Source: Halobacteriovorax sp. HLS (GTDB taxonomy: Bacteria > Bdellovibrionota > Bacteriovoracia > Bacteriovoracales > Bacteriovoracaceae). From it: DNA of 64,000 nucleotides. Numbering within the stretch: position 1 is the first letter of the stretch; each line of letters begins with the position of its first letter. The notes under the pieces were generated by a model. That model made no database searches and was not told the origin of the DNA. It saw nothing but the letters and a program-made list of their open reading frames with translations. The stretch is taken from NCBI RefSeq assembly GCF_004006665.1, contig NZ_QOCL01000009.1, positions 496,001-560,000 on the forward strand. The letters run 5' to 3'. The position numbers were made by a program, and so were the translations under genes. Shown in pieces: positions 27,385 through 43,965 of this stretch.

Positions 27385-29082
27385 ATGTTTAAGGTTTATA
27401 TTTTAATCCTATTTACTTATAGTGCGTCAACTTTTGCAATCTGTTCAGAAGTTGAAGGCGTTTTTAATAAGTTCTTATCTCTAGAAAAACTTAGTGCAAA
27501 GCAGAGAAGTACGATTCGAGGCACAGCACAAGTTAAAGAGTTTTTGGGTAAGTGGAAAGATCAGAAAGTTATTTCTGACAACCGAGCATTCATGAGTTCT
27601 ATGGACCGAGCAAGTGGATCATCGCAAAAGAGAATATACTTTGATGTAGAGAACTCAGTTTTGAAAGGTTTAAATGATCATGTGTTAGAGGATAAGGGTC
27701 TTGGTGATGCTGTTAATAATCTCTTTAATCAAAAATTTTTAAAGAACCTAAAATCTCATCCTGATTTATTAGATAAAATAAGTGGACAGTACTCAGACTT
27801 TAAATCAATGCGTTTTAGTTTTGATTATAAAGACGCATCAGAAGCAGATTCTATAAATAAGGCCTTAGCAGAAGTTTATCAAAAATCGAATGATGAGTTT
27901 CTATTAGAAATGGACAAGGCAAAAATGGCGGGGCTTTGGCAAGGTCATGAAGGTCAACTTGGAAGTCCTCAAACTTGGTTTCTTGCTGGAACTGGAGACA
28001 ATGCACTAGAGGCCAATATGGCATCAAGGGCCCAGAGAAGAAATGTCGCTTCTACTGGAGTAGCTAGTCTTTCGAAGTACTCTGACAATGTAGATGAACT
28101 CTATTCTCAAATGAGAGGAATAAGTGGTCTTCAAAGTGAGCTGGCCTCAAATCAGAAGCTTGTATCAAAGTCTATAATGACAAAAGTGAATGATGATTAT
28201 GTCCTTTCAAAAGAGATGATTACTATCTTACGTAAAAATAAAAGATCGGACTTTTCAAGTGAAGCAAAGTATCTAAAAGAAATAGAGCAGAAGTCTAAGA
28301 GTTTATTTGGAGTGAAGTTAGAAAAGGACGAAATTTTAAAAATGACAAAGTACTTCGAAGATATTGATTCAATGAGCCCTCCTTTGTTTATTAGAGATAG
28401 ACAGATCATAAATTTGGAAGAAGCTAAAAGCGGTCTTGTATCTGTAGACTTTGCGGGAATTGGTGTTGATAACGCTCAAGCGGCCATGATTGGACTTGGA
28501 AAGAGTTCAATGAATGATGCTAAAAAGATGAATAGTGTTTCAAAAACGTTAGATAATGTCTGGAAAGAAGTAGATAGTGTGACTGATGAGATGCATATGG
28601 CGCAAAGATCATATAACTCTGCAGTAAAAGAAATTGAACCAACTCACTCAGGGGCACTTTTTAGTGGGGATGATGGAATGTTCTTTCCTACTAAGTCATG
28701 GTCTAGAGATGAAAAGGTTAAATTAGTCGAGAAGCTTTCTCAAAAAGATCCTAGTAAGTATCGAGTTACTTTTGTTCCAACTCAATATAGTGATGGAACT
28801 TTGATTTCTGCTGCCAATAGAAGTGAGTATGTTGTTAAGGCAGAAAAAGTTGAGAAGTCTTTGAGAGCGAAGGTTACTGGAGTTGGGAAAGACAAGGTTC
28901 ACTTTAATAGAGCGAAGGATTTGATTTTCGCAATTGAATATAATCCAACTAAAGATGGAAATGGTACTTTTAATTTAATTGTTAAAGGTGGCGAGCTTTC
29001 TCCTAAAGAGCTTAAGTCAATTCATAAAGTTTTCTCACAAACTATTGAAGAAGGAAGTTCTGCTGGTATAATTATACATTAA
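27385..29082 (+). CDS. Exported hypothetical protein, 565 residues
   Basis: I do not recognise this protein. A signal peptide (MFKVYILILFTYSASTFA) is followed by a large, mostly helical, lysine- and serine-rich domain with no transmembrane segment. The C-terminal 100 residues look more mixed alpha/beta (DLIFAIEYNPTKDGNGTFNLIVK). It is probably periplasmic or secreted, perhaps via the type II system. Its stop shares one base with the ATG of the hydroxylase gene, so the two are co-translated. A sigma-28-like promoter lies directly before the ATG, suggesting expression with motility genes. Confidence 0.68.
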   Translation: MFKVYILILFTYSASTFAICSEVEGVFNKFLSLEKLSAKQRSTIRGTAQVKEFLGKWKDQKVISDNRAFMSSMDRASGSSQKRIYFDVENSVLKGLNDHVLEDKGLGDAVNNLFNQKFLKNLKSHPDLLDKISGQYSDFKSMRFSFDYKDASEADSINKALAEVYQKSNDEFLLEMDKAKMAGLWQGHEGQLGSPQTWFLAGTGDNALEANMASRAQRRNVASTGVASLSKYSDNVDELYSQMRGISGLQSELASNQKLVSKSIMTKVNDDYVLSKEMITILRKNKRSDFSSEAKYLKEIEQKSKSLFGVKLEKDEILKMTKYFEDIDSMSPPLFIRDRQIINLEEAKSGLVSVDFAGIGVDNAQAAMIGLGKSSMNDAKKMNSVSKTLDNVWKEVDSVTDEMHMAQRSYNSAVKEIEPTHSGALFSGDDGMFFPTKSWSRDEKVKLVEKLSQKDPSKYRVTFVPTQYSDGTLISAANRSEYVVKAEKVEKSLRAKVTGVGKDKVHFNRAKDLIFAIEYNPTKDGNGTFNLIVKGGELSPKELKSIHKVFSQTIEEGSSAGIIIH

Positions 29083-31300: not shown

Positions 31301-34300
31301 TTGAGAGAATATATTAGAAAACATCTATTTAGTTTTGCACTAGTGCTAGTGTGTTTTTGTGAATTAAGTTTCGCACATACATTGCTACATCAACATGCTT
31401 CAAGCGATGGTGCCACAGTCGTTTATCTTGATGAAGTTTCTCGTAAGTTGATCGTAAGAAAGTATCACTCAACTGATAGTAAGATACCTGCAAACTTTCC
31501 AAAAAATATTCGCTCACTTTCAAGCTTCAATCCTTCTATATTTGATAAATACCAAGGCGTATCTTCTAGTGAAAGTATTGTTGATCTAAATTCAAGCTCA
31601 TCTGCAATAAGTTCAGCTTTAAGTAGAGCAGTAGACGACTCTAGTTCAAAGTTTAGAATTGAAAGAACAATGAATGAACTGAAAAAGAATTTAGAGGGGA
31701 AGTCTTCATATAAAGTTGTGGCCGATACTAAAAGGCATGGTAAAAGAAATATAGCTCTTTTTAATCCAGTCTCCTCACACTTTATTATTCAAAAAAGTAA
31801 ATACTCAAATGCAGAAGTTTCTAGTCCTGTCAGCTTTCCAAAAGACCTTGCCAGAAGATTTAGAGAGAGTGATCAAGATAGCTATGATTTATCTACTCCA
31901 CATAAAATTGATAAGTATAGATCAAGAATCCAAAAAGGTTTAAAGAATGCTCGAGTTAGTGAAGATGTCATTGCTAAGACTCTAAGAGAAATAGATGAAC
32001 TCAAAAAGAGTAAGTCAGAAATTATCTCTAAAATGAAGTTAATTAAAACTGTAGGAGAGTCTGGAGAACAAAAAGAAATATACATGGACCTTGATACAGG
32101 AGACTTCTATTTTAGAAAGTTTGATGATGGCAAGGTTGATAAAGATAGCTTCTTTAATGTCGGGGATGATGCGACATTAGAATCTTTAAAGGAGCTATTA
32201 ATTAAAGAAGACTTATATAACGAAGGTGAGTTTGAACAAAAATTTACAGACTTTTTTAGTAATCATTGTCCTGAGAATCAGGCGGCCGATGTTATAGATA
32301 ATTACGAAAATATAGAAGATATTTTAAATGTAAATTCACAAGTTTGGGAACAGTACCTATCTATGGCGGTTTCAGATGGGCCACTTATTTTAGAAGACGG
32401 CTCCCTTGTTTCTAAACTTTCGTATCAAGGACAAGAGCATGGAGTTAAGTTTAAGCTTGATAGGTTGGGAAATATAGAAAGTGTTTCATTTATAAATTCA
32501 GATAAGGCCACTCAGAGTGGACTTAGTATTGAGAGAGTTAAAGAAGGTAATGAATATATTTTCAAAATTGTCTCTAACGATAATGGAGAAAAATTAGATC
32601 AATTCTTCTTTGATACAGAAGCTGTCAAGCTTGACAGTGATCCTATTACGGCGAAATTGGCAATCTATGTACTGGGCTCTCATGAAAAAGACCCTCTAGG
32701 AAAGAACTACTATGATAAGAATATCTATCCTATTGAGTTAGATGGTTTAGGAAAAATTACAAATAGTGGAAAGAAAATTCATCTATCATCTGCTAGAAGT
32801 TCAAAGTATCCACATCGTTTCAAAGAAGGAGACGGAGCTGGCGTGACTAGCTTTTTCTTCTCTAATTTCTTTAGCACAAATGGTAGAAGAGAAAAGCTAG
32901 AAAATGAAATATCTAAAGAAGCGCTCAATACTTCTGAGAAGCTGAATAAAGATGGTGTCGTCCTACTAAATAAAGGGGAAGTTAAAGAAACTGTTTCATT
33001 AATCGTGAGTGAGGTTGAGCGCGATATTCCTAAACTAAAAGGTAGTGTGCCACAAATAACAGCAAAAGTTTATGAGCACGCATATGAAAAGTTCTCCAAA
33101 ATTATTGTTCCAAAAATGATTAAAGATATGATGCCTGGAGAAAAACAAGATATCTATGAGTCAATTACAGATAAGGCAATGGTAGAGTTTAAGCAATGTT
33201 TAAAAAGAGCGTCCGATCAGAGTAACCCAGAGGGAGCTCCAAAATGTATGGAGTCCTTTGAAAAAGAAGCTCCAGTTATTATTGGTCAAGAAATTCTTGA
33301 TCTTCAGTTGAGTCAAAATGGATATGAACAACTCTCTGCGAAAGCAAAATTAGAATATACAAAATGTATTAAAGAAAATTATGACACCGCTAAGGGAGAT
33401 ATCAACTTTATAAAGGGCTGTATATTTAAGGCAACTTTTAGTAGCGTAGATGATGGGTTAGAGGGAGTTATTTCTCTAACATTAGAAAAGATGAGCAAGG
33501 AAATGGACCCTACTGGCAAGAAAACTATTTCAGTAAGTTCTAATATATCTCTTGCTAGTCGTAACGCTTTGAGAAGTTGTTATAGCAAAAAAGGATATCT
33601 AAGTAGCAGGGTCTTTACTGACAGCTATAATATGGACACTTTAAAAGAATTGGAAGTAGAGACCTTCAAGCAAGATCTCTTTACTTGTGCAGCAAGTGTC
33701 GAAGAGATTGTGACTAGTAATGTAACAGAGCAGTTTATTAGAGATAATCTTGCAGAAATTGATCTACCTGAAAATAAAAGAGCTGAAATACTAAGTCTTT
33801 CAATGGATAAAGGACTTAAGCATTGTGTTGATATTCAAAAAAGAAGAGTTGATATTCTTGCAAAGAGTGGGAAGTTCTCAGTAGTAAAAGCTAGTGAATG
33901 TAAAGACTACGTAACTCTCTTTGTAACTGAACAAGTTGTAGATCAGAGTCTACAAGAGAAAGTATCAAAAGATTTATGGAATAAAATAGGAAAAGATGCT
34001 CCTCATAAGTCTTGTTTTGAAGGACTTAAACAAAACTCTTTAAAAAATCTTCTTGAAGAATCGGAAAGTGAGTTCAATATCGATCAGCAGTCTGCCAATT
34101 GTCTCAAAAAGAGTATTGAGTGGATAACTTACTACGTGGCAAAAGAAGAGTTACTAAAGACCTTTAGTGACGATCCAATGTATAAGAAAGTAAAGATCGA
34201 TGATAAAAAAAGAGATCAATATGCAAAGAGAATTCAAAAATGTATTTCTGAAAAGTTATCTTCGAAGAATTCTTTAGAGGAAGTAACTGATTCTTTATCT

Positions 34301-36871
34301 CAAGCGCAGGATGCATGTATTGTTAGTTTAGTTTTAAGTGATGATGCTGCTAAAGACATTCTCTCTCCTGTTGTTTCAACTATGTTAGATGAAAATGACA
34401 TAGGGATTGATCTACAGGCCAAGGCCATCGGTCCTATTGTCCACAATATGCGAGAGCGAGTTAATTCAAGATTAAAAACAGAAAGCTTAACGCTTGATCA
34501 AGTTGTTGATGAGTTTAAAAAAGTTAAGGGGACGGCAATCTATTTCATAGCAGATATGACTATTGATGGATATGTGAATGACTTTATTGATGATAAAAGT
34601 AAAGTTGATGAAATCTCTCTAAAGGTAAGAAAGGACTTATTTGATGGCGAAGACGGTTATCGAGCAATTCTTACTGGAGAGAAGGACGAAGCTAAGTTTG
34701 ATAATCATATTCGTTCACTAACAAAAGATGCTGCCATTAAGCTCACTGCAATTGTCACCAATGAAGAAGCAAAGAAATTATTGTCAACAGGAGTGCTTAA
34801 AAGTGAAGCTGAAGTTGAAAAATTATCTAAGAATGCTCCTATCACTATGGAAAAGTGTTTAAATGAATTTAAAACTGGTGAGTTTAGTGATCATGTTACG
34901 TATTGTATTGCACATACTAAAGCGTCACTGACAAAGGATGTTTTTGAAGATCAGCTAAAGTCTGTTTTATATAATAGTGAGTATTCAGAGTATTTTGATG
35001 AGAAAACCAGAAAAGAAATTTTGGATAAACAGATTAATCCACAACTAGAAAGTAGTATCAAAGAGGCCTATAAAAAAGATGAGCTTGAATCCTTTATAGA
35101 AGACTTTACTTTAAGTTCGACTATTATTGCGTCTAAACCTGTACTTAGAGGAATAATTGCAGAGACGATATATGGCAAAGGGGTTGACCCTAAGAATGCT
35201 CCTGCCTCTAAAGTTGAACTGGTAGAAATGGCCTCACAAAAGTCTGAAGAGGTTTTATCGAATTGTTTACTTGAAAATCAAAGAGCTGGAAAGAAGTCTT
35301 CCCAAGATACAGAGCTTTGTATAAATGGTGTTAAGTTAACGGCCACGAGTCTTATACTTGAATCAATTCTGGATGATGTAGGTACTTATTTTGATAAAGA
35401 TCCGATCTCTAGAAAGAAGTTGATAGATGGTCAAGTGAAGTACTTAGAACTTTGTGCAAAGAGTGCCAATGTTGAATTTAAAGGAAATGAATTTTCTAAT
35501 CATTTAAACTCATGTTTAATTGAAGATATTTTCGATTTTACAGGAAATGCTGTAAAGCACTTGTCCCATAAGAATGAGTTAATGAGAACTATTGGGGATA
35601 ATGATCTGGAGAAAATGAATACTTGTATTCAGGATGCTAAGCGAGACTATGTTAAATCTCAAAAAGTAGTCTCTTTAAGTGCGCAACAACGTAATGAGCT
35701 TTACTCTAAGATTAAAGATGGTGTTGGATTTTGGAATGAGATCTTTAGTATTCATGAACAGAGTGGAATTAAGAACTCTTCGAAAGGTGTCATCGACTGG
35801 TCTGTTGAAACTGTAAAAAGATGTGCAACAAAAGAAGTCACGCCTCTCGTTCTAGATAGTATTCTTTTATCTAGAACTGGTAAGAAGGCAATGGGTGTGA
35901 CTTCACACGAGCATGCACTTGTTCTGGAAATCTCTCGGGCCATAAAAGATTTTACTGGTAAAGAGTTTGATGATCGTTTTTGGATTGATTTTTCCTCAGC
36001 GTTTTCAACAGATAGTAAGAAAGCTGAACCTTCTGTTAATGATCGCAAAGATATCAGCGATTATATTAATTCTATAATGCCAATATTAGGTACTTATATT
36101 AAGAAATTGTCGGCATTTGATTCTAAGCGAACCGTAGAAGAGTTTAGAGAATTGCTAAAAGAAATTGCCTTGGCCAAAAAGAATAAGAACCTCACTTTAG
36201 ACGAGCTTAAAGATATACTTCTTTCATCTAAGCTGATGGATACAATTATAACTTCTGAAATTGGTGAAGTAATTCGAAAAGAGGCCACTGTGGCGCTTTC
36301 TTCAGAGGGACTAACTGCTGATGATATTCGCAAGATCGTCTCACCAAAGATTTTGAATGAATTATTTTCGCCTAAGAATCCAAAGGCCAAGAAAGTGTTA
36401 GACGATATAAAGCAACAGTATATTAGACCTCTTTTAGATGGTAAGAAAGTTGACGGGATCCCTGAGTCTGTAGTTAAAGATGTTAAAATACATCTTGCAT
36501 CTGACACTAAAATGGGGGGATTTGTTGAAACTTTAGCAGGAGCTATTGTTCAAAAGAAATTAGATGCTAAAAGACCTAATAATGTTGGTACTCAAACGAT
36601 TGCGGGTCTGATTGGCTACAATCATAGAGATTTTGATTGGAACAATTTAAGACAAAGAAGAGCTACAGGAGTTGCAAGTAAGGACCAGCCTGTGCAAAAA
36701 GCGATTGATTACTTTGGAGCGAGTGTTCTAAAGCCTATTCTTTTAAAAGAGAACTTAGGTAATCATGTTGAAAATGGGATATTCTCAAATAAAGTAACCC
36801 CAATCATTGAAAAGAGAAAGGAGTCTTTCTCAGAAATGATTGAGGGATTAATGGAGTTAGATAGACCTTAG
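31301..36871 (+). CDS. Giant exported protein (1856 residues) with ten cysteine pairs
   Basis: I do not recognise this protein. It starts at TTG with AGG upstream; this start gives a clean signal peptide (KHLFSFALVLVCFCELSFA). The rest is soluble, very rich in Lys, Glu, Asp and Ser, and predicted mostly helical. From residue 633 to 1508 it contains 20 cysteines in ten pairs: 633/649, 689/707, 760/796, 842/867, 905/934, 981/1006, 1186/1202, 1322/1340, 1385/1405 and 1442/1508. The first or second Cys is often followed by I or L, and the second by a helix with regularly spaced hydrophobics, suggesting a degenerate helical-hairpin repeat closed by a disulfide. One lone Cys (323) lies outside this region. 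It is likely periplasmic or secreted. A sigma-28-like promoter precedes it. Confidence 0.8.
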   Translation: MREYIRKHLFSFALVLVCFCELSFAHTLLHQHASSDGATVVYLDEVSRKLIVRKYHSTDSKIPANFPKNIRSLSSFNPSIFDKYQGVSSSESIVDLNSSSSAISSALSRAVDDSSSKFRIERTMNELKKNLEGKSSYKVVADTKRHGKRNIALFNPVSSHFIIQKSKYSNAEVSSPVSFPKDLARRFRESDQDSYDLSTPHKIDKYRSRIQKGLKNARVSEDVIAKTLREIDELKKSKSEIISKMKLIKTVGESGEQKEIYMDLDTGDFYFRKFDDGKVDKDSFFNVGDDATLESLKELLIKEDLYNEGEFEQKFTDFFSNHCPENQAADVIDNYENIEDILNVNSQVWEQYLSMAVSDGPLILEDGSLVSKLSYQGQEHGVKFKLDRLGNIESVSFINSDKATQSGLSIERVKEGNEYIFKIVSNDNGEKLDQFFFDTEAVKLDSDPITAKLAIYVLGSHEKDPLGKNYYDKNIYPIELDGLGKITNSGKKIHLSSARSSKYPHRFKEGDGAGVTSFFFSNFFSTNGRREKLENEISKEALNTSEKLNKDGVVLLNKGEVKETVSLIVSEVERDIPKLKGSVPQITAKVYEHAYEKFSKIIVPKMIKDMMPGEKQDIYESITDKAMVEFKQCLKRASDQSNPEGAPKCMESFEKEAPVIIGQEILDLQLSQNGYEQLSAKAKLEYTKCIKENYDTAKGDINFIKGCIFKATFSSVDDGLEGVISLTLEKMSKEMDPTGKKTISVSSNISLASRNALRSCYSKKGYLSSRVFTDSYNMDTLKELEVETFKQDLFTCAASVEEIVTSNVTEQFIRDNLAEIDLPENKRAEILSLSMDKGLKHCVDIQKRRVDILAKSGKFSVVKASECKDYVTLFVTEQVVDQSLQEKVSKDLWNKIGKDAPHKSCFEGLKQNSLKNLLEESESEFNIDQQSANCLKKSIEWITYYVAKEELLKTFSDDPMYKKVKIDDKKRDQYAKRIQKCISEKLSSKNSLEEVTDSLSQAQDACIVSLVLSDDAAKDILSPVVSTMLDENDIGIDLQAKAIGPIVHNMRERVNSRLKTESLTLDQVVDEFKKVKGTAIYFIADMTIDGYVNDFIDDKSKVDEISLKVRKDLFDGEDGYRAILTGEKDEAKFDNHIRSLTKDAAIKLTAIVTNEEAKKLLSTGVLKSEAEVEKLSKNAPITMEKCLNEFKTGEFSDHVTYCIAHTKASLTKDVFEDQLKSVLYNSEYSEYFDEKTRKEILDKQINPQLESSIKEAYKKDELESFIEDFTLSSTIIASKPVLRGIIAETIYGKGVDPKNAPASKVELVEMASQKSEEVLSNCLLENQRAGKKSSQDTELCINGVKLTATSLILESILDDVGTYFDKDPISRKKLIDGQVKYLELCAKSANVEFKGNEFSNHLNSCLIEDIFDFTGNAVKHLSHKNELMRTIGDNDLEKMNTCIQDAKRDYVKSQKVVSLSAQQRNELYSKIKDGVGFWNEIFSIHEQSGIKNSSKGVIDWSVETVKRCATKEVTPLVLDSILLSRTGKKAMGVTSHEHALVLEISRAIKDFTGKEFDDRFWIDFSSAFSTDSKKAEPSVNDRKDISDYINSIMPILGTYIKKLSAFDSKRTVEEFRELLKEIALAKKNKNLTLDELKDILLSSKLMDTIITSEIGEVIRKEATVALSSEGLTADDIRKIVSPKILNELFSPKNPKAKKVLDDIKQQYIRPLLDGKKVDGIPESVVKDVKIHLASDTKMGGFVETLAGAIVQKKLDAKRPNNVGTQTIAGLIGYNHRDFDWNNLRQRRATGVASKDQPVQKAIDYFGASVLKPILLKENLGNHVENGIFSNKVTPIIEKRKESFSEMIEGLMELDRP

Positions 36872-39593: not shown

Positions 39594-40226
39594 TTAGTAA
39601 GTAGCTGAAATCCTGAATAAGTTTTCCATAGAAAGACCTGCAAGTGCCTTTGAGAAGAACTCAAAAAGGGTATCAGGTATGCCTGTGTCGTGACCAAACC
39701 ACTGTGCATAGCTGTAGAAAAGACAGCGATTATTGTATTCAATCGCGATAATCTCCCCCTTAAGTCCATTGAGAAAACCACGATCAAATATGAATGGGTA
39801 TCTTCCTGGCCTCTTTATTCTAGGAATTGCAAAGTTTAGACTCATATCAAACGGTAGTAACTTCGAGGAGAGTTGAAAGTTCACCCTTTGTGCTTTGTCG
39901 TCGTAGCTACTTTCTTTGATAAAACCGAGATGTTTACTAAAAGATTCGTAGTGAGACAGCTTTCTAAGTGCAAAACGACAGGACTTTGGGTGGAGTCCGG
40001 AGATGATAAAGTCTAGTTTTTGATAGTTTTGTGAATGTTTCTTTGAACTTTTAACCGTTGAAGTTACATAAATTTCATTTTTTAATATTTTTTTCCATGC
40101 AGATTCACTTATGGATTTTTGAACACTTATATGGTCAAACTTCTTTTGAGCATGGACAATTGGGGCACCATGGGCAGTACTGATTAGCAGTAAAATAGTT
40201 AAAATATATTGTTTTATGTGACGCAT
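39594..40226 (-). CDS. Exported hypothetical protein, possibly START/SRPBCC-like
   Basis: This 210-residue protein has a signal peptide (about 1-20, ILTILLLISTAHG) and a mature part whose spacing of beta-strands and final long helix (FFSKALAGLSMENLFRIS) resembles a START/SRPBCC lipid-binding fold, though the match is weak. Three cysteines are present. An overlapping frame at 39521-39787 is probably a shadow. Function unknown. Confidence 0.6.
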   Translation of the reverse strand: MRHIKQYILTILLLISTAHGAPIVHAQKKFDHISVQKSISESAWKKILKNEIYVTSTVKSSKKHSQNYQKLDFIISGLHPKSCRFALRKLSHYESFSKHLGFIKESSYDDKAQRVNFQLSSKLLPFDMSLNFAIPRIKRPGRYPFIFDRGFLNGLKGEIIAIEYNNRCLFYSYAQWFGHDTGIPDTLFEFFSKALAGLSMENLFRISATY

Positions 40227-40310: not shown

Positions 40311-42467
40311 ATGGGTAAGAGTATTGAAACCGTAAAAAGAAAAGGTAAAGCAAAGGAAGCACTGATTGAGAGTAAAGATCAGCGGTGGCATTGCCGAAAT
40401 CGTATTACTCTAGTCTTTGGCTCAAATGATATCGAGGAACTAGATACTTATATCTATGAAGATCATAAAGTTGACTTTAAAACTGTTAAATTTCATCAGG
40501 CCAAGAGTAAGGCCATAGAAGAAATCTTAGATAATTGTATTGATGAATTCTATCGTGGCCATGTTACAGAAATTCACTGCGAATTATCGGACGATGGTAA
40601 GACTGTTGCCGTTGAAGATAATGGTATCGGGTTTCCACTTCCAAAAGTTCCTCAGGTTTACTCAGAATTTAGAACGGGTTCAAAATTTAAAGACGAAGAG
40701 ACAGATGCAAAGGGGTTTTTACATAGAACCTTAGGTCAAAACGGTCTTGGTGCCGCGGCAACATGTCTTACTAGTGATGAGTTCAAGGTTCGTGTTCGTC
40801 ATTATAATACAAAAAAAGAGCAAACTTATACGTTCATTGATGGAGCTCTAAAGGTCAAAAAGACTAAGCCTAAGACTTTTGCTGGACACTCTGGGGTTAG
40901 AGTTGAAGTTACTCTCTCTAAAGAGGTCTATAAGAATAATACTATTGATGCTGATTTACTAAGAAAGAGAATTATTGACCTTTCTTATAATAACCCTGGT
41001 CTGACTTTCTATTTCAATAAAGAAAAGTATCACTTTAAGAAGGGGCTTTTAGAGCTTGCTCAAAGAGTTGACGAAAAAACGGCGCAGGAATTCGGTACTA
41101 GTACTTATATTTATGAAAATACTAATACAAAAGGGAAGAAGGTTAAAGGGAAGATAGATATGTCTATTGCCCTAAACATCTGTCCAAAGTCTGAAGAGCG
41201 AGAAAAGTATATTTCTTTTGTTAACTCTACTCCTACTTTTGACGGTGGTTTTCACCATGATCGTGTAAGACGTATTTTTATCAATGGTGTGAAAGACAAG
41301 CTTGCCAGAGCGATGAAGAAAGAGAAGGTAACTCTAGTAGATAATGATATTTTAACAGGTATTACTTTTACTATTGGTATTACAATGCCAAATCCTCGCT
41401 TTGAGTCCCAAACAAAGAGAAAGCTTGTTAGAGATACTTTCTTAGAAAAGGGAATTGAAGAAATAATGTCTAAGAATATGGATAAATTTCTTAGAAAGAA
41501 TAAAGAGTACTTAGAGCTTGTAATGGAAAGAGGTAAGTCTCGTCACCGTTTTCAAGAACTCAAAGATGCATCGAAAGTTGCAAGAAAACAGAAGAAACAA
41601 AGAGTTGAAAAGTTACTAGATGCTAACGAGAGAAAGAAAAGAGAGTTATGCTCTTTATTTATTTGCGAAGGGGATTCTGCTATTGGTGGTCTTCGTTCTG
41701 CAAGAGATAAGCTTTATCAAGGTGGAATCGCTCTTAAGGGTAAGCCAATGAATGTTGCCCAGTCTTCTATTAATGACATTATTAATAATCAAGAATTTGC
41801 AGATATAATGGCCTCAATTGGCCTTGTTATTGGTGTAGAAGCTGAAATCTCAAACCTTAGATACTCGAAGATTATTTTTCTCGCGGATTCGGATGTTGAT
41901 GGTGGGCATATCAATACGCTCTTAACAAACTTCTTCTTCCAGTTTTGGCCAGAATTATTTGAACTTGATGTGATATGTATTGCTAAAGCACCACTATTTG
42001 AGGTTATTACAGATAAGGGAACTAAATATATTGAAACTCCAAGTGAGCTAGATGATTTTAGAGCTACGACAAAATTAAAGATTAAAGAAATTCAAAGAAA
42101 TAAGGGACTTGGGGAAATGTCTCCAGAGGCGTGGAAGCATGTTCTTTCTCGTGAGTCTTTCACTGTTATAACTGCTAACGATATGTCTCTTGCAAAAGAG
42201 ATGCTGAACGTCTGTTTTGGTAAAGATACTAGCCTTAGAAAAGACCTGTTAATGGATGAAGAGTCTACTGGAGAAAGTGTTTCGGTATCATCTTCAAAAG
42301 TGAAAAGCACTTCTAAGAGTTCTAGTAAAAAGAAAGTAACTAAGAAGAAAGTTGCCAAAAAGAAAGTAGCACCTAAGAAAGCTGCTGCTAAAAAAGCCAC
42401 TTCGAAAAAGAAAGTTACTAAGAAGAAAGCAGCTACTAAGAAAACTAAAAAGAAATCCAAGAGATAA
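40311..42467 (+). CDS. Type IIA DNA topoisomerase, ATPase/TOPRIM subunit, T4-like, with lysine-rich tail
   Basis: This 718-residue subunit has a GHKL ATPase (EEILDNCIDEF, EDNGIGF, GQNGLGAAATC), a transducer domain and a TOPRIM domain with catalytic EGDSA (Glu453) and DSDVDGGH (Asp526/528/530). It would normally be annotated GyrB/ParE. However, several blocks resemble phage T4 gp39/gp60 more: EGDSAIGGLRSARDKLYQGG, FFFQFWPELFELD and CFGKDTSLRKDLL. The final roughly 50 residues are a histone-H1-like array of KKK, KKA and TKKK, probably binding DNA non-specifically. The partner A subunit starts 14 bp downstream, so they form an operon. It manages DNA topology or decatenation; activity not provable from sequence. 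Confidence 0.93.
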   Translation: MGKSIETVKRKGKAKEALIESKDQRWHCRNRITLVFGSNDIEELDTYIYEDHKVDFKTVKFHQAKSKAIEEILDNCIDEFYRGHVTEIHCELSDDGKTVAVEDNGIGFPLPKVPQVYSEFRTGSKFKDEETDAKGFLHRTLGQNGLGAAATCLTSDEFKVRVRHYNTKKEQTYTFIDGALKVKKTKPKTFAGHSGVRVEVTLSKEVYKNNTIDADLLRKRIIDLSYNNPGLTFYFNKEKYHFKKGLLELAQRVDEKTAQEFGTSTYIYENTNTKGKKVKGKIDMSIALNICPKSEEREKYISFVNSTPTFDGGFHHDRVRRIFINGVKDKLARAMKKEKVTLVDNDILTGITFTIGITMPNPRFESQTKRKLVRDTFLEKGIEEIMSKNMDKFLRKNKEYLELVMERGKSRHRFQELKDASKVARKQKKQRVEKLLDANERKKRELCSLFICEGDSAIGGLRSARDKLYQGGIALKGKPMNVAQSSINDIINNQEFADIMASIGLVIGVEAEISNLRYSKIIFLADSDVDGGHINTLLTNFFFQFWPELFELDVICIAKAPLFEVITDKGTKYIETPSELDDFRATTKLKIKEIQRNKGLGEMSPEAWKHVLSRESFTVITANDMSLAKEMLNVCFGKDTSLRKDLLMDEESTGESVSVSSSKVKSTSKSSSKKKVTKKKVAKKKVAPKKAAAKKATSKKKVTKKKAATKKTKKKSKR

Positions 42468-42481
42468 GGAAGAATTAGAAA

Positions 42482-43936
42482 ATGCAAGAAACGTATTTAC
42501 ATTCAATGGCAAGCGTACCTCTAGAAGATATTGTTAAAGAGGAATATCGCATTTACCAAATCTATACTCTAATGGATCGTGCGATTCCTTACCTAAAGGA
42601 CGGTCTGAAGCCAGGTCAGCGTCGTATTCTATTTACACTGTGGAAAAATCAATCCAAAGGCCTCATGAAGGTATCTTCTGCTACAGGTCTAGTGCTAACT
42701 CTTCATCCACATGGACCTGCCTCAGTTGAATCTGCAATTGTTAATATGGCCCAGGATTATACTTTCTCTAATAATTACCCTCTCATTGATAAGAAGGGTT
42801 ATTTCGGTGAAAGAATGGAGACTTCTCCAGCAGCATCTAGGTATATCGAATGTAAACTGGGGAAGATCTCTCAGATTCTACTATTTGATGATATGGACCA
42901 AGTTGAAATGGTTCCTAACTATGATGAAAAAGTTATGGAGCCTCTAAATCTTCTACCTAAACTTCCACTTATGTTACTGAACGGTGCGGAAGGCATTGGT
43001 ACTGGTTTTTCTTCTGTAATTCCTAGTTTTGGTCATAAAGATATTATTGCTTCAATGATTCAATTCCTAGAAACAGGTAAAGCGAAGAAGATTAAGCCAT
43101 ACAATCATGGTTACACATTACCAATTGAAAGAGATGAAAGAAGAAGACTTATCTTTAGAATGGGTTTTGAAGAAAGAGCAGGAAAGTTTTATATAACAGA
43201 GCTTCCTCGTGGTTATGATGCTCCAAAGGTTTATAAGTTTTTAACTAAACATATGGAGTCTGGGTTCTTAAAAGACTTTACTGATTCAAGTGTAGATAAT
43301 GATGTAAATATTGAATTAATCTTTAAAAAGAGTGCAGAAGTTACTTTAGAAGAGATTGAGAAAGTCATGGGGGCCCATTCATCTCAGGTTCCTAACTATA
43401 CTCTTATTTCAGAGCGTGGTGTTCGAATCTTTGATAGACCAGAAGAAATATTAGAGATCTTTTCTGGGCAAAGACTTGCTGTTGTTCAAAGAAGATATGA
43501 ATTACGTTGTGAGAAGCTAAAAAATAGTATTCAACAAAATAATGAAATTATTAAATTCATTAAAAATAAAGAATATGAAGTTGCTACTAAATCTAAAAAC
43601 AGAAAGTCATTTGTTGAGTACTTAACTAAGAAGAAGTATGTTTATGCTGATTACTTAGCAGATATGCCAATTTATAGAATGACAAAAGAAGAAGTTGCTA
43701 AACGTGCTCTTATGGTCAAAGAAGATAAGAAGCTATTTGATGAGTACTCTAAAGTGGCCAAGTCTCCTAAGCTTATCAAGAAGAAGCTTATTGAAGAGCT
43801 TAATGAAGTAGGCGCTCAATTAACAGCTTGGCTTAAAGAGAAAGATCGCGAAAGAGTAGAGCTTAGAAAGAAGATCGAAAAGAAAACAGCGAAAGTTGCG
43901 AAGAAAAAAGCAGTAACGAAAAAGAAAAGAAAATAA
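42482..43936 (+). CDS. Type IIA DNA topoisomerase, breakage-reunion subunit, short T4-like form
   Basis: This 484-residue subunit has the winged-helix and tower region with catalytic Tyr121 in SPAASRYIECKL, plus LKPGQRRIL near the N-terminus. At 484 residues it is far shorter than GyrA or ParC (about 750-900) because the C-terminal DNA-wrapping beta-pinwheel is missing; it ends instead in a lysine-rich tail (KKTAKVAKKKAVTKKKRK). Blocks such as HPHGPASVESAIVNMAQ and GIGTGFSSVIPSF match T4 gp52 and eukaryotic topoisomerase II better than gyrase. It would cut and rejoin both strands with the B subunit. Lacking the pinwheel, it should relax or decatenate rather than introduce negative supercoils. 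A strong terminator follows. Confidence 0.93.
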   Translation: MQETYLHSMASVPLEDIVKEEYRIYQIYTLMDRAIPYLKDGLKPGQRRILFTLWKNQSKGLMKVSSATGLVLTLHPHGPASVESAIVNMAQDYTFSNNYPLIDKKGYFGERMETSPAASRYIECKLGKISQILLFDDMDQVEMVPNYDEKVMEPLNLLPKLPLMLLNGAEGIGTGFSSVIPSFGHKDIIASMIQFLETGKAKKIKPYNHGYTLPIERDERRRLIFRMGFEERAGKFYITELPRGYDAPKVYKFLTKHMESGFLKDFTDSSVDNDVNIELIFKKSAEVTLEEIEKVMGAHSSQVPNYTLISERGVRIFDRPEEILEIFSGQRLAVVQRRYELRCEKLKNSIQQNNEIIKFIKNKEYEVATKSKNRKSFVEYLTKKKYVYADYLADMPIYRMTKEEVAKRALMVKEDKKLFDEYSKVAKSPKLIKKKLIEELNEVGAQLTAWLKEKDRERVELRKKIEKKTAKVAKKKAVTKKKRK

Positions 43937-43937
43937 T

Positions 43938-43965
43938 AAAAAAGGCTCCTTACGGAGCCTTTTTT
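43938..43965. terminator. Bidirectional terminator after topoisomerase operon
   Basis: A 12-bp stem AAAAAAGGCTCC / GGAGCCTTTTTT with loop TTAC has T-runs on both strands. It serves the topoisomerase operon and the convergent gene at 43965, overlapping the first base of that gene's stop. Confidence 0.93.

Follow-up and report, generated by a model that had tools for sequence, protein, structure and literature searches.

A two-gene type IIA topoisomerase of the Bacteriovoracaceae and its deep placement outside the bacterial and phage-plus-eukaryote clades

Organization of the operon and features of its products

The analyzed window, a 64,000-nucleotide stretch of DNA from Halobacteriovorax sp. 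HLS, contains at positions 40311–43936 an intact two-gene operon encoding first the B and then the A subunit of a type IIA topoisomerase (Table 1). Both genes lie on the same strand and, according to the ORF list, are separated by 14 nt. The type IIA assignment was based on the GHKL ATPase, transducer and TOPRIM domains of B and on the winged-helix cleavage domain with the catalytic Arg-Tyr pair in A. The setting is of a chromosomal housekeeping type, with argS, an acetyltransferase gene and an exported-protein gene located upstream. Downstream lie genes for a membrane protein, for proteins of the LamG-domain and IHF/HU types and for a MerR regulator, together with a type II secretion-like cluster. 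No phage genes were seen around the pair, and the G+C content of the two genes (0.36 and 0.35) matched that of the window (0.356). The window also encodes two large proteins of 1856 and 565 aa (31301–36871 and 27385–29082, both +) with likely signal peptides and no Pfam match.

Table 1. Features of the topoisomerase operon, in window coordinates.
Feature	Position	Strand	Remarks and basis
B subunit: ATPase, transducer, TOPRIM	40311..42467	+	718 aa; ORF, Pfam domains, 21-member family alignment
N-terminal arm of B, about residues 25–68	40383..40514	+	longer than the GyrB/ParE arm; phmmer aligns only Topo II/T4-type enzymes
TOPRIM domain of B, residues 449–544 (E453 GDSA, D526-S-D528)	41655..41942	+	Pfam PF01751; invariant in 21 relatives
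Lysine-rich C-terminal tail of B	42258..42464	+	69 aa with 42% K/R by composition; predicted disordered (pLDDT about 30, residues 647–718)
A subunit: breakage-reunion core lacking both the C-terminal pinwheel and the GyrA box	42482..43936	+	484 aa; ORF, PF00521 at residues 33–440
Residues A80–S84 of A, at the E. coli GyrA S83 and D87 positions	42719..42733	+	HPHGPASVES here, HPHGDSAVYD in GyrA
Catalytic R120-Y121 of A	42839..42844	+	invariant in 21 relatives
Basic C-terminal tail of A	43823..43933	+	37 aa, 49% K/R; composition
Terminator-like hairpin, T runs on both strands, located between the A gene and the convergent gene that follows	43938..43965	.	pattern scan and sequence; consensus match only

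In the B subunit, the Pfam domains GHKL, DNA_gyraseB, TOPRIM and DNA_gyraseB_C were identified, and the catalytic residues E71/N75, K369 and E453/D526/D528 were invariant in the family alignment. The N-terminal arm lacks the RPGMYIG motif of GyrB; phmmer alignments start at residue 11/16 for human Top2A and at residue 27 for the T6/T4-type chain, whereas those with GyrB start only at residue 69. In pairwise BLAST and phmmer comparisons, GyrB matches of B outranked those to T4, and the scores against ParE of Lachnospiraceae (up to 238 bits) and of Bacteroidota (up to 223 bits) were about level with those against most phage B subunits. The best score of B with the NCBIfam gyrase/Topo IV models was 301 bits, below the curated cut-off of 740. 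Of 23 relatives examined, 4 (L070, L072, L073 and L074) had a B subunit without the basic tail, and in a few more the tail was weak.

The A subunit is covered by the DNA_topoisoIV domain and stops after the coiled-coil region, with neither a pinwheel nor the GyrA box, which in the host GyrA is present as QKRGGKG at position 536. Its best score among the NCBIfam gyrA, parC and PRK models reached 181 bits, below the curated cut-off of 654, and its best sequence matches in PDB were yeast Top2 and T4 gp52, both full length and ahead of ParC and GyrA. The basic tail of A was found in all 23 family members examined, and the C-termini of B and A are the two most lysine-rich among all ORFs of the window. 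At both quinolone-contact positions, S83 and D87 in E. coli GyrA numbering, window A differs from GyrA, so this enzyme and Topo IV could respond differently to the drugs. The residues A80 and S84 suggest an altered quinolone response of the enzyme; A80 was not among the residues listed as invariant in the family alignment.

These data agree with most of what the initial annotation had proposed for the locus. The two ORFs of the postulated topoisomerase lay exactly there, all motifs quoted for them were found, the catalytic residues described as intact proved invariant across 21 family members, and the A subunit indeed lacked a pinwheel. The lysine tails ascribed to both subunits are present in the window and, for A, throughout the relatives examined, but the tail cannot be regarded as a defining feature of B. 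The view of the pair as a resident chromosomal enzyme was borne out by the lack of phage genes nearby, the matching G+C content and the vertical inheritance described below.

Distribution, inheritance and proposed function

The genome carrying the window, which is 99.98% complete, contains one gyrB, one gyrA and the A/B pair, and its PF00521 genes number exactly two. The short A subunit was detected in 67 of 72 sampled genomes of Bacteriovoracaceae (Bdellovibrionota), with Bacteriovorax stolpii and Halobacteriovorax sp. being the named carriers of the same gene pair, versus none of the 169 genomes from other Bdellovibrionota families. Among genomes at least 90% complete, exactly two PF00521 genes were counted in 59/66 from the family and exactly one in 121/126 from other families of the phylum, several of the exceptions looking like fragmented assemblies. 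Gyrase is accordingly the sole type IIA enzyme of almost every Bdellovibrionota genome sampled from families other than Bacteriovoracaceae. The short-A model gave no match at E 1e-60, a threshold at which it readily recovers Bacteriovoracaceae, in a partial sampling of 1234 genomes (195 + 349 + 345 + 345) from four other phyla, those of a Verrucomicrobiota genome, Pseudomonas, a 'Deltaproteobacteria' MAG and a Cyclobacteriaceae MAG. The search of plasmids recovered ordinary gyrase/Topo IV alone. As the second enzyme was confined to Bacteriovoracaceae in this sampling, the family ancestor either gained or kept it.

The B and A genes were adjacent and in the same order in 20/20 loci from different genera, with argS, acetyltransferase, ihfA and merR genes in many of the neighborhoods. 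The divergent neighbor of the B gene, encoding a small exported protein without Pfam match (39594–40226, - strand in the window), was conserved in all 20 loci. In 10 genomes, the pairwise distances of the enzyme tracked those of GyrB (Mantel r 0.81, with 1 of 5000 permutations as high), and the mean divergence of the two was equal (0.297 and 0.301, respectively). The enzyme is inherited vertically within Bacteriovoracaceae and behaves as an old core gene.

Cleavage, ATP-driven strand passage and resealing constitute the established mechanism of type IIA enzymes. In the proposed model, the two products of the operon would assemble into an A2B2 heterotetramer, in which Tyr121 of A, acting with the TOPRIM acidic residues of B, would cut the gate duplex. 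A second duplex would then be captured and passed through with ATP bound by B, after which the gate would be resealed. As the pinwheel and the GyrA box, by which a DNA-wrapping gyrase is recognized, are missing from A, the enzyme should relax and decatenate DNA rather than introduce negative supercoils. The basic tails, of variable length and not conserved in B, probably raise the affinity for DNA.

Apart from the pair, the genome encodes no type IIA enzyme but gyrase. The pair therefore most likely fills the Topo IV role, in which it is predicted to relax and decatenate DNA and to separate replicated chromosomes beside the host gyrase. The suggestion of the initial annotation that the pair stands in for or supplements Topo IV fits the outcome of the genome search, which gave only gyrase and the pair, with decatenation itself predicted from the missing C-terminal domain and the gene content. 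A special task, e.g., in managing the chromosome while the cell grows within its prey, ordinary decatenation being left to gyrase, could be proposed on the grounds that all other sampled families of the phylum live with gyrase alone and the second enzyme is thus dispensable in the phylum. However, evolutionary constraint like that on gyrase and retention by almost the whole family argue for a core function, and predation alone does not explain the presence of the enzyme, as the gyrase-only relatives in Bdellovibrionota very likely include predators. This alternative is therefore considered unlikely.

Phylogenetic position of the family enzyme

The reference set comprised annotated phage, plasmid and E. 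coli records, named genome contigs, IMG/VR contigs and PDB alignments (yeast, human and T4-type), the eukaryote sequences being partial as they were taken from PDB alignments. Trees were built for A alone, for B alone and for concatenated subunits (a 52-row set and a careful 32-row set, with ultrafast bootstrap and SH-aLRT); all were unrooted. The separate A, separate B and concatenated trees agreed on the placement of the family. In the 32-row A+B tree, all bacterial gyrase/Topo IV rows formed one clade without the family (support 100/100), and the T4-type phages, XbC2-type jumbo phages, pf16-type phages and yeast formed another clade, also without the family (100/99). Both splits were recovered with ultrafast bootstrap of 100 each after SR4 and Dayhoff-6 recoding. 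The host's own GyrA/GyrB grouped with E. coli gyrase (100/99). A long stem (1.03 changes per column in the 32-row tree) leads to the family, and long-branch effects could shift the exact depth of the family. Group-diagnostic columns were mixed, with 6 phage/eukaryote-like and 3 bacterial columns in A, and 6 and 5, respectively, in B, as expected for a third lineage.

By these sequence comparisons, the family enzyme is a third deep type IIA lineage, located outside both the bacterial gyrase/Topo IV clade and the clade of phages and eukaryotes; as the trees are unrooted, neither group can be called the nearer one. The pair belongs neither to Topo IV by descent, being placed outside the ParC/ParE and gyrase clades, nor to the T4-type enzymes, being placed outside the T4/tailed-phage clade, and it is neither sister to nor nested in eukaryotic Topo II, whose B and A parts are fused.

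Capture of a T4-type topoisomerase by the family ancestor from a known kind of tailed phage (T4-like or jumbo) appears quite unlikely. The top PDB matches of A, the longer N-terminal arm of B common to T4-type enzymes, and the identity of the nearest viral relatives, which are jumbo and T4-like phages at about 30–35%, are in line with such an event. However, AU tests rejected the grouping of the family with the T4 group (p-AU 5e-6) and with the jumbo-phage group (p 0.003), in agreement with the phage-plus-eukaryote clade formed without the family. Moreover, searching viral contigs with patterns derived from the family's own alignment revealed no close relative, and broader patterns recovered phage enzymes at the above identity only. 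This alternative covers known phage kinds; an unsampled phage donor forms part of the explanation preferred here.

The description of the pair as T4/eukaryote-like in the initial annotation held in part: the best alignments of A, spanning its whole length, are those with yeast Top2 and T4 gp52, and B has the longer arm, but descent from or sisterhood with these enzymes was rejected, for yeast (eukaryotic Topo II) with p-AU 1e-52. The resemblance of B to T4 proved uninformative when judged by profile, as the host GyrB scored higher on phrog_543 than window B (502 vs. 455 bits), and PHROG scores were discarded as a sign of T4 affinity. The fold was likewise rejected as a discriminator, the top Foldseek hits being T4/T6 for A and a GyrB for B at nearly equal scores; the structure models were of modest confidence (pLDDT 68 for A and 75 for B). 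The presumed bearing on the origin of eukaryotic Topo II turned out to be of little directness, as the family lies outside the phage-plus-eukaryote clade and eukaryotic Topo II nests here among pf16-type phage enzymes.

Several viral sequences were noted in the course of the analysis. The A subunits of two IMG/VR contigs (L266 and L267) scored higher against Bacteriovoracaceae than against the other references used, and L267 formed the deepest branch of the jumbo-phage group. The B subunit of Pseudomonas phage pf16 (L079 3953–7146; KU873925 124864–128057) gave 397 bits to human Top2A vs. 265 to T4, and in the concatenated tree the pf16 topoisomerase fell into a group with yeast and a further viral contig. 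Some IMG/VR contigs (L269 2012–5272; L310) encode the topoisomerase as one fused ORF, that of L269 comprising 1087 aa and matching both A and B; the fused viral ORF is the counterpart of the single-chain eukaryotic arrangement.

Placement inside ordinary ParC/ParE with simple C-terminal loss, which the initial annotation had named as contrary to its view, was opposed by the AU test, which rejected the grouping with Bacteroidota-type ParC/ParE under the models used (p-AU 2e-5). The Chlamydia and spirochaete enzymes were judged solely through the NCBIfam models PRK09631 and PRK09630, which are taken here to be the spirochaete and Chlamydia models. Bacteroidota ParC scored high on them (783 and 411 bits, respectively) and window A low (144 and 106), which assigns the Chlamydia/spirochaete enzymes to the Bacteroidota clade. 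It is highly improbable that the pair arose by C-terminal loss and fast evolution from an ordinary bacterial ParC/ParE, possibly a divergent one of the Bacteroidota/spirochaete/Chlamydia kind: the ParE scores of B and the precedent for a short A (the 479-position PRK09630 model) speak for it, but the family stays outside the bacterial clade also after recoding, window A scores near T4 gp52 (118 and 87) on these models, and the family branches today are no faster than those of GyrB.

Taken together, the pair probably constitutes a heterotetrameric type IIA enzyme with the Topo IV job beside gyrase and represents a third deep lineage that entered or was retained in the Bacteriovoracaceae ancestor and has been vertical since, with activity, role and tail function predicted and the source presumed. 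The enzyme was most likely taken into this ancestor from an unsampled, perhaps viral, source, or else may have been retained there. The chances seem about even that Bacteriovoracaceae preserve a type IIA class equal in rank to the bacterial and phage/eukaryote classes, surviving in one family or captured from an unsampled virus lineage, combining features in a way of its own and perhaps having a distinct drug sensitivity.

Published schemes, reportedly including that of Guglielmini et al. 2022, contrast the type IIA enzymes of bacteria with a phage/giant-virus/eukaryote group. A third lineage that is both deep and cellular would offer a new point for rooting the type IIA family and for the kinship of viral and cellular enzymes. 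The data also suggest that chromosome separation in an entire bacterial family is the task of an enzyme scoring far below the curated gyrase/Topo IV cut-offs; a second enzyme beside gyrase in a mostly predatory family matters for both enzyme origins and chromosome separation. No paper describing the enzyme was found in the literature search, although priority is not certain; a study of archaeal gyrase reports gyrA-like genes in a few Caudoviricetes and does not mention Bdellovibrio (PMC9348778).

Comparison with known type IIA enzymes

Like ParC/ParE, the family enzyme has separate A and B subunits, is a second type IIA enzyme beside gyrase and has no GyrA box. It differs in its placement outside every sampled ParC/ParE and gyrase (100/100), in the lack of the pinwheel and in the other N-terminal arm of B. 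With the divergent Topo IV of Bacteroidota, spirochaetes and Chlamydia (PRK12758, PRK09631 and PRK09630) it shares the status of a divergent second enzyme and, in the case of the PRK09630 type, also the short A, whereas a single clade was rejected and the model scores were low.

The T4 (gp39-gp60/gp52) and jumbo-phage enzymes resemble it in the short A without pinwheel and the longer arm of B, and they gave the best or near-best full-length matches of A. In contrast to them, the family enzyme, about 29–35% identical, is located outside the phage clade, is cellular and vertically inherited and carries basic tails. Eukaryotic Topo II shares with it the A core, which aligns end to end with yeast Top2, and the basic tail following the core on A, but the family enzyme is encoded by two genes instead of one fused chain, and its sister placement to yeast was rejected.
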